Source: Gammaproteobacteria bacterium (GTDB taxonomy: Bacteria; Pseudomonadota; Gammaproteobacteria; Xanthomonadales; Marinicellaceae). Taken from it: DNA of 64,000 nucleotides. Below the pieces are notes generated by a model. That model worked only from the letters and a program-made list of their open reading frames with translations, was not told the DNA's origin and searched no databases. Below, in pieces: positions 27,947-61,990 of the stretch. The stretch spans positions 1 through 64,000 of the forward strand of contig JAJRQG010000123.1 of assembly GCA_024280395.1 (NCBI GenBank). Reading direction: 5' to 3'. The translations under genes and the position numbers were made by a program. Position 1 is the first letter of the stretch. Every line of letters begins with the position of its first letter.

Positions 27947-28972
27947 ATGTCAATCTACAATCACCGAGAGAATTACCCCAAGGGATCATTGGTTCAATTT
28001 GAAATCGAGTCAGAAATCCTCAAAGACAACCCTTTAAAAGATCCGCACACAAGAATTGTTTATGTGTATCTGCCAGCTGATTATGATGAAAAGGCGGTTG
28101 ACTTGCCAGTTATGTATTATTTAGCAGCTTATACCAATAGTGGCACTGGTGTGGTTGGGTGGAAAGCTTTTGGGGAAAATATTACTGAAAGATTAGATAG
28201 GTTGATAGCTGAAGGCAAGTTGGGACCAACTGTTGTAGTAATGCCTGATTGTTTCACCTGCTTGGGGGGCAACCAGTATATTGATTCACCCGCGATTGGC
28301 AATTATGCATCATTTATTGTAGAAGAAGTAGTGCCTGTTGTTGAAGAAAACTTTAGCATTAAAAAAGGCATGCAACATCGAGCCGTTTTAGGAAAATCAT
28401 CCGGTGGTTTTGCTGCGATTCGTTTTGCCATGGATTTTCCTGGATTTTGGGGAGCGGTCGCCAATCAGTCTGGTGATGCTGGATTTGATGTGTTGTATCA
28501 AAGAGACTTCCCGACGGTTGCCAATGTGTTGGCTAATTATAAAGGCGATATCAATCATTTTATTAAAAGATTTTGGAAGGCCAAGAAAACTAATGGTTCT
28601 GATATCTTAACTTTAATGATGATTTGTATGGCAGCCACTTATGATCCGCAAGATGAAATCGAACTGCCTTTTGATCTAAACACTTGTGAAATCAAACCTG
28701 AGAGATGGCAAAACTGGTTGGATAATGATCCTGTTAATTTGGTAAAACACAACATCAAAGCACTGCAACAACTCAATGGTTTGTTTATGGACTGCGGAAG
28801 TCGTGATCAGTTTATGATTCATTATGGTATGCGTAGATTGTCCAAACAATTGGAGAAATTCAATATCGAACACAGCTATGAAGAATTCAATGGCACACAC
28901 TCTAGTATTGATTACCGACTGGATATTTCATTGCCATATTTGTATGAAAAAATTAAGGTAAACTCGGAATAA
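27947..28972 (+). CDS. Putative esterase (alpha/beta hydrolase, esterase-D-like)
   Basis: This is a 341-aa alpha/beta hydrolase. The nucleophile elbow is LGKSSGGFAAIRFA, the acid probably in DCGSRDQF, and the His in FNGTHSSIDYR. It resembles the Fes/YbbA/esterase-D group by the N-terminal strand VYVYLPADYDEKAVDLPVMYYL. No signal peptide is present, so it is cytoplasmic. It starts immediately after the rluC stop and is probably co-transcribed. Its stop codon (28970-28972) lies inside the first unit of a 22-bp repeat array. Confidence 0.85.
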   Translation: MSIYNHRENYPKGSLVQFEIESEILKDNPLKDPHTRIVYVYLPADYDEKAVDLPVMYYLAAYTNSGTGVVGWKAFGENITERLDRLIAEGKLGPTVVVMPDCFTCLGGNQYIDSPAIGNYASFIVEEVVPVVEENFSIKKGMQHRAVLGKSSGGFAAIRFAMDFPGFWGAVANQSGDAGFDVLYQRDFPTVANVLANYKGDINHFIKRFWKAKKTNGSDILTLMMICMAATYDPQDEIELPFDLNTCEIKPERWQNWLDNDPVNLVKHNIKALQQLNGLFMDCGSRDQFMIHYGMRRLSKQLEKFNIEHSYEEFNGTHSSIDYRLDISLPYLYEKIKVNSE

Positions 28973-29092
28973 TATGGCGCCTAACTCGGATTAAGCTAGT
29001 GTGAAACTCGGATTAAGCTAGTGTGAAACTCGGATTAAAGATGTGTATAACTCGGATTAAAGACCTGTATAACTCGGATTAATGTTGTTATT
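28961..29092 (+). repeat. Six-unit tandem array with exact 22-bp period
   Basis: Units start at 28961, 28983, 29005, 29027, 29049 and 29071. Each begins with the 12-bp core AACTCGGATTAA (first copy AACTCGGAATAA), followed by 10 more variable bases. Units 2 and 3 are identical. The array starts within the esterase stop codon and ends 44 bp before the DUF4143 ATPase ATG. Confidence 0.95.
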
Positions 29093-29136
29093 TTGGCCTT
29101 GCCAATGTATCATGTCCCTGATTCAAAGGGAAAAAT

Positions 29137-30387
29137 ATGTTTAAAAGAAATTTAGAAACCCTGATAAAAGAACTGTTAGATGAATTTAGGATTGTCTATT
29201 TAACAGGTCCGCGTCAGTCAGGAAAAACCACCTTGGTTCAATTAGTTGGAAAAAACTTAGATATGAGATACTTAACACTGGATGATAAGGCAGTATTATC
29301 AGCCGTAGAAAATGATCCGCAAAGTTTTATTCAATCATTTAAAAACCAAAATATTGTACTTGATGAATTCCAATATTCACCTCAACTCATTCCTGCAATT
29401 AAACAAGCATCAGACCAATTAAGCAATAAACACAAAGGAAAATTTTTATTAACGGGTTCTGCTGATATTTTCAAATCTGCAAAAGTTCAAGAAGCGTTAC
29501 CAGGTCACATGGCAAGATTGGAGTTGTATCCATTATCAATTTCTGAATTAACACAACAACCAATTAATATTATTGATTACTTGATTACTGGTCATTTTGA
29601 TAATGGCAGTGATTTAACCGTGTCAAAACAACAAGTCGCCGACTGGATAATTAATGGTGGTTATCCAGAAGTTCAGAGTAAAAGCCACAAAGGTCAATCA
29701 ATGTGGTTCAAGTCCTACTTGCAAGGCCGTTTGTTAAAAGATTTTGAAACTTTATATACTGCCCGAGGAGATTATCAAGCCAAATTGTCTGCATTGATTG
29801 CCTATTTGTCTGGTTTGTGTGGAAACCTGCTTAAATATGCCAATGTTTCAAATGATTTAGAAATAGATGATAAATCAGTGAAAACATACATTAATATATT
29901 AGAGTTGATGTTTATTGTGAAAACCGTACCAGCCTATTTAAAAAATAGAGCAAAAAGACAAGCAACAAGAATGCCTAAATTACACTTTGTCGATACGGGA
30001 TTAGCCTGTTATTTGTTGGGGCTGAAAAAGTATGAACAACTGGTTTATAGTCAATATTTTGGTGGTTTATTTGAGAATTTGGTTTTTATGGAGTTAACCA
30101 AGCATACGCAATGGGCTATAAATGATGTCTCACTTTATCACTTTAGGGATAAGCGTAAAAACGAAGTAGACATAGTATTGGAACAAAATAATGGTCAAAT
30201 AATTGGTGTAGAAATTAAAGCTTCTTCAACAGTTGGTATAAAAGATTTTAAAGGCTTAACTAAACTGGCTGAATTTGCCGGGAATAAATTTAGCCATGGC
30301 GTTGTGTTTTATACAGGTGCAAATATTTTACCTTTTCACCAAGGAGAAATTAAAATGTATGCTTTGCCGATTGGGTTGTTAAAATAA
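29137..30387 (+). CDS. AAA ATPase with DUF4143 domain
   Basis: The 416-aa protein belongs to the AAA_14/DUF4143 group. Walker A is GPRQSGKTTL (~residue 24), Walker B IVLDEFQYSP, sensor LLTGSAD; the DUF4143 part contains HFVDTGLACYLLGL. The C terminus holds a nuclease-like strand set NEVDIVLEQ ... GVEIKAS that resembles PD-(D/E)xK folds. An AAAGGGA lies upstream of the ATG. Its stop shares a base with the start of the SUKH gene, so the pair is translationally coupled. These ATPases are common in variable regions; their role is not settled. Confidence 0.9.
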   Translation: MFKRNLETLIKELLDEFRIVYLTGPRQSGKTTLVQLVGKNLDMRYLTLDDKAVLSAVENDPQSFIQSFKNQNIVLDEFQYSPQLIPAIKQASDQLSNKHKGKFLLTGSADIFKSAKVQEALPGHMARLELYPLSISELTQQPINIIDYLITGHFDNGSDLTVSKQQVADWIINGGYPEVQSKSHKGQSMWFKSYLQGRLLKDFETLYTARGDYQAKLSALIAYLSGLCGNLLKYANVSNDLEIDDKSVKTYINILELMFIVKTVPAYLKNRAKRQATRMPKLHFVDTGLACYLLGLKKYEQLVYSQYFGGLFENLVFMELTKHTQWAINDVSLYHFRDKRKNEVDIVLEQNNGQIIGVEIKASSTVGIKDFKGLTKLAEFAGNKFSHGVVFYTGANILPFHQGEIKMYALPIGLLK

Positions 30388-30857
30388 TGGACATTAAAGA
30401 GTTGGTCAAGAGATTTGATAATGGTGTAACAGAAGATTATGGACATTATTGCCAAAAAGTTTGCAAACCCACTAAAAAAAGTATTCAAGTCATTAATCAA
30501 TACTTGGGTATGGAAGTTCCTAAATCATTGATTGAGTTTTTAAGACTAAGTCATACAGCAACTTCTTGGTTTGCAAGTTTTGGAGAGGACTTTAAAAATC
30601 CTGTGCATGTGTTGCAACGTAATCGTCGTTTAAGAAAAATTCGAAGAAGAGTTATTGGATGTAGAGGCAAATGGGAATATGTGTTTCCCAAAAATTTGGT
30701 CGCTTTTAATTTCGAATTTGATGGTGATAACTGTTGTTTTGATTTATCTAAATACAATAAAACAACAGGAGAGTATAAAATAGTGTACTGGGCGTCACCT
30801 CGAATTGTTGGAGATGAATACGATAAAGGCTTTCCGTCATTTATGAAAAAAGAATAA
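30387..30857 (+). CDS. SMI1/KNR4 (SUKH) domain protein
   Basis: This 156-aa protein has SUKH hallmarks: VPKSLIEFLRLSHTATSWF early, then FNFEFDGDNCCFDLSK and YWASPRIVG near the C terminus. SUKH proteins are frequent immunity proteins against polymorphic toxins. No toxin gene is visible here, so it may instead be an orphan immunity protein or a partner of the ATPase whose stop codon it overlaps by one base. Confidence 0.8.
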   Translation: MDIKELVKRFDNGVTEDYGHYCQKVCKPTKKSIQVINQYLGMEVPKSLIEFLRLSHTATSWFASFGEDFKNPVHVLQRNRRLRKIRRRVIGCRGKWEYVFPKNLVAFNFEFDGDNCCFDLSKYNKTTGEYKIVYWASPRIVGDEYDKGFPSFMKKE

Positions 30858-38967: not shown

Positions 38968-39007
38968 ATACATACATACATACATACATACATACATACA
39001 TACATAC
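38968..39007 (+). repeat. (ATAC)10 tetranucleotide microsatellite in the metzincin signal-peptide region
   Basis: Ten perfect ATAC units begin 7 bp after the A of the ATG. Four is not a multiple of three, so each gain or loss of a unit shifts the frame. The present number puts ATG 38961 into a frame that stops at TAG 39036-39038. Confidence 0.98.

Positions 39008-61476: not shown

Positions 61477-61990
<514 letters not shown>

Follow-up and report, generated by a model that had tools for sequence, protein, structure and literature searches.

Evenly stepped direct repeats stand immediately upstream of the gene for an AAA_14-DUF4143 ATPase in the window (the whole 64,000-nucleotide stretch of DNA that was analysed, from a gammaproteobacterium of the family Marinicellaceae), and the same arrangement recurs before most of its close relatives as the probable control switch of a very common, never-tested candidate anti-phage gene. 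The reading that we favour, and consider probable, is that the repeats form an iteron-like operator to which the ATPase binds cooperatively with its own winged helix, thereby regulating its own gene. The protein belongs to PDC-S01, which a 2026 paper reports to be the fourth most common prokaryotic defence system, with 29,494 bacterial and 9,986 archaeal copies, and the anti-phage activity of which it describes as still unvalidated (PMC12988326). The array marks only one clade of this family, for which it offers a handle on both control and DNA target, in the form of a defined candidate site and a predicted binding domain. In the literature we found no described array before DUF4143, COG1373 or PDC-S01 genes, and no control region in PDC-S01 papers.

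In the window, the array consists of six units on the forward strand (28961-28982, 28983-29004, 29005-29026, 29027-29048, 29049-29070 and 29071-29092), each of which opens with a 12-bp core (28961-28972, 28983-28994, 29005-29016, 29027-29038, 29049-29060 and 29071-29082), the step between cores being 22 bp throughout. Five of the six cores (units 2-6) read exactly AACTCGGATTAA, and that of unit 1, AACTCGGAATAA, differs by a single change. By chance, 0.42 core matches with at most one mismatch are expected per window and six were reached in no shuffle; the same array was recovered independently by TRF, which bears out the original prediction of six 22-bp units with a 12-bp core. The array ends at 29092, as had also been stated, 44 bp before the ATG of the ATPase gene at 29137. 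Throughout the genome (3,771,384 bp in 158 contigs), the exact core is confined to five units of this array, and matches with one mismatch elsewhere are no commoner than those of a reversed control pattern. The spaced pair TCGGAWTA-N14-TCGGAWTA was found across 61 genomes in the window array only, and a comparison of the 191-bp region with plasmids gave no match. The window array is not a CRISPR array, in which repeats of some 23-47 bp alternate with unique spacers of greater length and cas genes are present, as its conserved part is about 12-14 bp, its spacers are 8-10 bp and no cas genes were found among the neighbouring proteins scanned in the window.

The array begins at the very end of a putative esterase gene (PF00756; 27947-28972, forward strand), an upstream neighbour that is conserved in the genus and lies outside the system. 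As originally noticed, the array overlaps the stop codon of this gene; the core of unit 1 is in frame (AAC TCG GAA TAA, i.e. Asn-Ser-Glu-stop, 28961-28972), so that the array provides the final three codons and the stop of the esterase, most orthologs of which in the same genus end a few residues sooner. The in-frame TAA is thus real, but a function in supplying stops looks incidental, since a 22-bp step is not divisible by 3 and, in other genomes, those arrays that were inspected are independent of a neighbouring stop codon. On the other side of the ATPase gene, a SUKH-family protein (PF09346) is encoded at 30387-30857, its ATG overlapping the ATPase stop codon. This protein, which had been put forward along with the ATPase as a candidate binder, does not fit: no SUKH gene was found next to the ATPase in two relatives of the same genus (G010 and G004), nor among the other downstream first ORFs inspected, and it was rejected as a conserved partner. 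The gene downstream of the ATPase is not conserved across the loci inspected, which leaves the ATPase as the only constant partner of the array.

The pitch of the array is a property of the ATPase clade, as seen in a larger set of loci from the class, from other members of the phylum and from plasmids. A period spectrum of 105 upstream regions reveals a strong repeat at 22 bp in 25% of them and at 23 bp in 30%, as against 0-4% at other periods apart from the multiples 44 and 46 (the only peaks being at 22, 23, 44 and 46) and 1-4% at 22 bp in coding and far-upstream controls. By a strict test, which demands at least 10/12 identity at 22/23 bp, direct repeats lie just 5' of the start codon in 68 of the 87 genes of the ATPase clade, membership of which was read from a tree for genomic and viral loci and from similarity to a clade member for plasmid loci. 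The same test yielded 0-2/87 for other period pairs, 0 for a coding control, a mean of 0.74 for shuffles and 2/41 for sister DUF4143 clades, and when one sequence was kept per 60%-identity group, 34/47 were positive in the array clade versus 1/27 in the sister clades (p = 4e-9). A tree of 112 proteins places nearly all arrays in one clade, the sister DUF4143 clades being nearly without them. The 19 remaining members of the 87 are without a clear array by the strict test, and a few of them have inverted repeats instead. In a subgroup of the clade (L070, L071, L082, L084, L152 and L197), the start codon has inverted repeats or palindromes close to it, in some cases likewise at a 22-bp step.

The same layout is found on plasmids of Rhizobium, Ensifer, Agrobacterium, Azotobacter, Novosphingobium and others, one of them p42f (L192) of the laboratory strain Rhizobium etli CFN 42. 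A reverse search of 339 genomes for two CAATTGGMCG cores at 23 bp returned five places (the reversed pattern returned none). For four of them, tblastn places a DUF4143 ATPase behind the array; the fifth, at the end of a contig, was judged from its sequence to lead into the beginning of an ATPase gene of this kind. Where relatives occupy other loci (L060-L062), hardly any upstream DNA apart from the array is shared. A single-sequence scan of genome contigs for relatives gave one match only, and one ortholog (L059) resides in a MAG labelled Lysobacterales. Within the genus, the ATPase follows the same esterase in G010 and G004 (67% identity), where the DNA before it is mostly unrelated to that of the window, yet has TCGGAA cores at exactly 22 bp; at a different locus, G006 encodes an ATPase of 40% identity with four TTGGAA-type cores at 22 bp. 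In G006 there is also an ATPase remnant (C-terminal part, with stops) after the same esterase, 77% identical (contig C17, 47717-48217), which is a case of loss of the ATPase gene in a relative. Other relatives in the genus have the esterase followed by other genes, the presence of the ATPase being patchy. Conservation on a family-wide scale contradicts the idea, against which the original prediction had staked itself, that the core is variable-number junk.

What is conserved within a unit is a short site. Once aligned in phase, units share a 14-bp consensus, TTTaCAATTGGaCG, which takes the form GTATAACTCGGATT in the window (29067-29080 at unit 6), and across arrays the identity between units is mostly at least 0.7 over the site versus 0.2-0.5, near chance, over most of the spacer; in the window the corresponding values are 0.97 for the core and 0.43 for the spacer. 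Spacing of the cores by two helical turns had originally been taken as a sign of cooperative binding by a repressor, and the cooperative part now has comparative support from the 22/23-bp pitch, the 14-bp conserved site, the drifting spacers and the position 5' of the gene across the ATPase clade, while repression and the identity of the protein are things that we infer. The end of the last site precedes the start codon by a median of 16 bp (range -7 to 90 bp, some units overlapping the start codon), and across array loci no promoter element was found at a clearly constant distance from the array, so that activation is conceivable as well. Right behind the last core of the window lies a weak sigma-70-like promoter candidate (TTGTTA-N17-TATCAT; 29085-29113, forward strand), which is a 9/12 match of a quality equally common in shuffled DNA. 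As for translation signals, the value for Shine-Dalgarno-like sequences is 0.29 in array loci versus 0.16 in others. Alternating A/B/A/B units are visible in some arrays (L069, L102, L139, L144, L192 and L140); a two-unit super-period was rejected, as it was not significant over 31 arrays (lag 2 versus lag 1, p = 0.89).

The proposed binder is a protein of 416 residues (29137-30387, forward strand) that matches the PADLOC model for PDC-S01 (PDLC04790) over nearly its full length with E = 1.3e-132, and PF13173 (AAA_14, 3.5e-25) and PF13635 (DUF4143, 2.4e-42) above the curated Pfam cut-offs; the PDC-S01 model is also matched by 14 of 14 members of A1. In an AlphaFold2 model (mean pLDDT 89.5, pTM 0.90) made from an alignment of 13 sequences (the window ATPase and related loci), an AAA+ domain (residues 1-205, 29137-29751; Walker A GPRQSGKTT, Walker B LDE) is followed by a winged-helix region, the putative DNA-binding domain (residues 206-285, 29752-29991), and then by a PD-(D/E)XK-like nuclease region (residues 308-411, 30058-30369) with invariant E313, D345, E359 and K361, all on the forward strand. 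The winged helix is made of helices 214-225, 234-241 and 245-257, the last of which is the putative recognition helix (29869-29907, forward strand), and of a wing. When this segment is searched alone (pLDDT 77.7), its structural matches are MarR, ArsR/SmtB and PadR regulators (E 0.006-0.04, probabilities near 1), and its Pfam HTH matches are weak. With the whole model, the matches nearest by Foldseek are the archaeal AAA+ ATPases SSO1545 (2fna) and PABY2304 (2qen), at about 17% identity, with ORC, RuvB and DnaA close by and the nuclease Card1 also listed. A search of solved structures by sequence found no match to the ATPase, a viral fold library gave generic AAA+ matches only and Pfam detected no Rep domain in the array-linked ATPase. 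Of the two binders first suggested, the ATPase fits, by its clade-specific linkage and its winged helix, and it may well bind the array through the latter. Phylogeny accounted for most of the signal when core bases were tested for covariation with ATPase residues, and the winged helix showed no excess, with 11 of the top 60 pairs (11.5 expected) and its recognition-helix stretch no higher than the 90th percentile.

The operator would consist of sites of about 14 bp, spaced every 22 bp along the control region 5' of the ATPase gene, and the ATPase most likely contacts them via its central winged helix, and the AAA+ domains of adjacent subunits could pack side by side on the DNA. A step of 22-23 bp amounts to 2.1-2.2 turns, and the subunits would track one face of the DNA with a slow twist, like an AAA+ filament or open ring. 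Occupancy of the array would set the expression of the ATPase, most likely by repression, and a potentially harmful ATPase-nuclease would be kept scarce until either subunits are titrated away or the protein switches state, possibly in a defence role upon invasion by foreign DNA. Like an iteron-type operator, the array consists of direct repeats stepped evenly by about two turns beside the gene of the proposed binder.

Plasmid replicons with iterons, such as that of R6K with its pi protein, combine 22-bp direct repeats with a winged-helix protein encoded alongside, which often regulates its own gene. Direct repeats of about 22 bp are thus common to both, the winged-helix binder of the array being putative, but, in contrast to plasmid iterons, no replication origin or Rep homology was found here and the window gene, which is chromosomal as far as seen, encodes an AAA+-nuclease. 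Closer to defence, the locus-encoded repressor RptR represses a defence island via three direct repeats (PMC12255303), and, like the array with its candidate defence gene, its operator has several direct repeats at the promoter of the locus. RptR is, however, a small separate repressor of 9-bp repeats around TAGCTA (PMC12255303), whereas the only constant partner of the array is an effector-like ATPase and the pitch is 22/23 bp. In Thermus thermophilus, the DUF4143 ATPase TT_P0211 has a value of 6.6 in a table of genes changing with plasmid DNA present (PMC4406477), which would fit regulation by foreign DNA.

An alternative that we consider unlikely is that array and ATPase form a one-gene mobile cassette, the array being a recombination end that the ATPase-nuclease binds in order to move. 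At 15 of 86 DUF4143 loci, host DNA is indeed duplicated on the two sides (32-383 bp, 74-97% identity, direct orientation in 15/15), and at several loci the left copy ends close to the array; controls gave 0/18 for esterase loci and 1/86 for upstream versus upstream. These loci are L012, L061, L065, L074, L079, L088, L129, L139, L164, L197 and L200 in the array clade, and L032, L130, L142 and L176 among the others. In an example of the pattern, a gene truncated to its 5' end precedes the array, and its complete counterpart follows the ATPase. Duplicated pieces include lptE-like fragments in L074, fragments like the start of a type I restriction gene in L079 and L088, and a small gene in L065 (names read from translations, without a family search). 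The union of AAA+ and a PD-(D/E)XK-like domain in one protein and the patchy presence in the genus also speak for a cassette. Against it, a right-hand site (at least 12/14 match) is found in 1 of 56 loci, and that one (L139) is a repeated flank; the duplications have no fixed length, in L061 they are a host dispersed repeat, non-array clades have them too and the window locus has none. With their varying lengths, one host dispersed repeat and none at the window, the duplications are a sign of past mobility that is a lead and not a result.

Tn7 offers a comparison, as its proteins bind repeated sites at the transposon ends (TnsB sites), next to AAA+ and PD-(D/E)XK genes, but the window array is one-sided and accompanied by a single gene, and no transposase domain was found. 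A transposon with sites at both ends, Tn7-like or other, was rejected, as 55 of 56 loci have no downstream site. We hold as unlikely, too, the composite in which array and ATPase make up a mobile defence cassette of one gene, whose product (AAA+, winged helix and PD-(D/E)XK-like nuclease) would assemble on its own iterons to silence that gene as well as to move the cassette, and would leave the long direct duplications of host DNA behind. Downstream of the ATPase in L139, the left flank, a single array unit and the leader occur a second time but the gene does not, as would be left by a tandem copy with an internal deletion.

It is quite unlikely that the array serves mainly to mark or nucleate the ATPase-nuclease as a defence complex (as a cis scaffold or self-recognition site) rather than in transcription. 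AAA+ proteins with DNA-binding domains do often assemble on repeated sites, structural neighbours of the model include ORC and DnaA, and PDC-S01 is listed as a defence candidate, but the array occupies the 5' side of the gene and ends near the start codon, as control of that gene predicts. Control of the ATPase by some other host protein that binds the array seems decidedly improbable, since the exact core and the spaced core pair are unique to the window array in its genome, and arrays, though recurring in unrelated species and on plasmids, remain tied to this one ATPase clade. A possibly toxic gene preceded by tandem repeats recalls the layout of type III toxin-antitoxin loci, but an action of the repeats as RNA in this style, or in translation of the ATPase, is very improbable: the array RNA folds no better than shuffles (z = +0.65), so that it does not resemble a structured antitoxin RNA, the fixed helical pitch and drifting spacers fit DNA binding, and some units overlap the start codon. 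A non-functional minisatellite born of slippage is hardly credible, as slippage, although some window units did arise by duplication (the adjacent units 2 and 3 are identical), is insufficient alone where spacers drift while some 14 bp are kept, and is refuted as a full explanation by the contrast between core and spacer and by the same pitch in dozens of independent loci.

Elsewhere in the window, two tetranucleotide repeats, ATAC x10 at 38968-39007 and AAGC x14 at 61488-61545, are possible phase-variable tracts.
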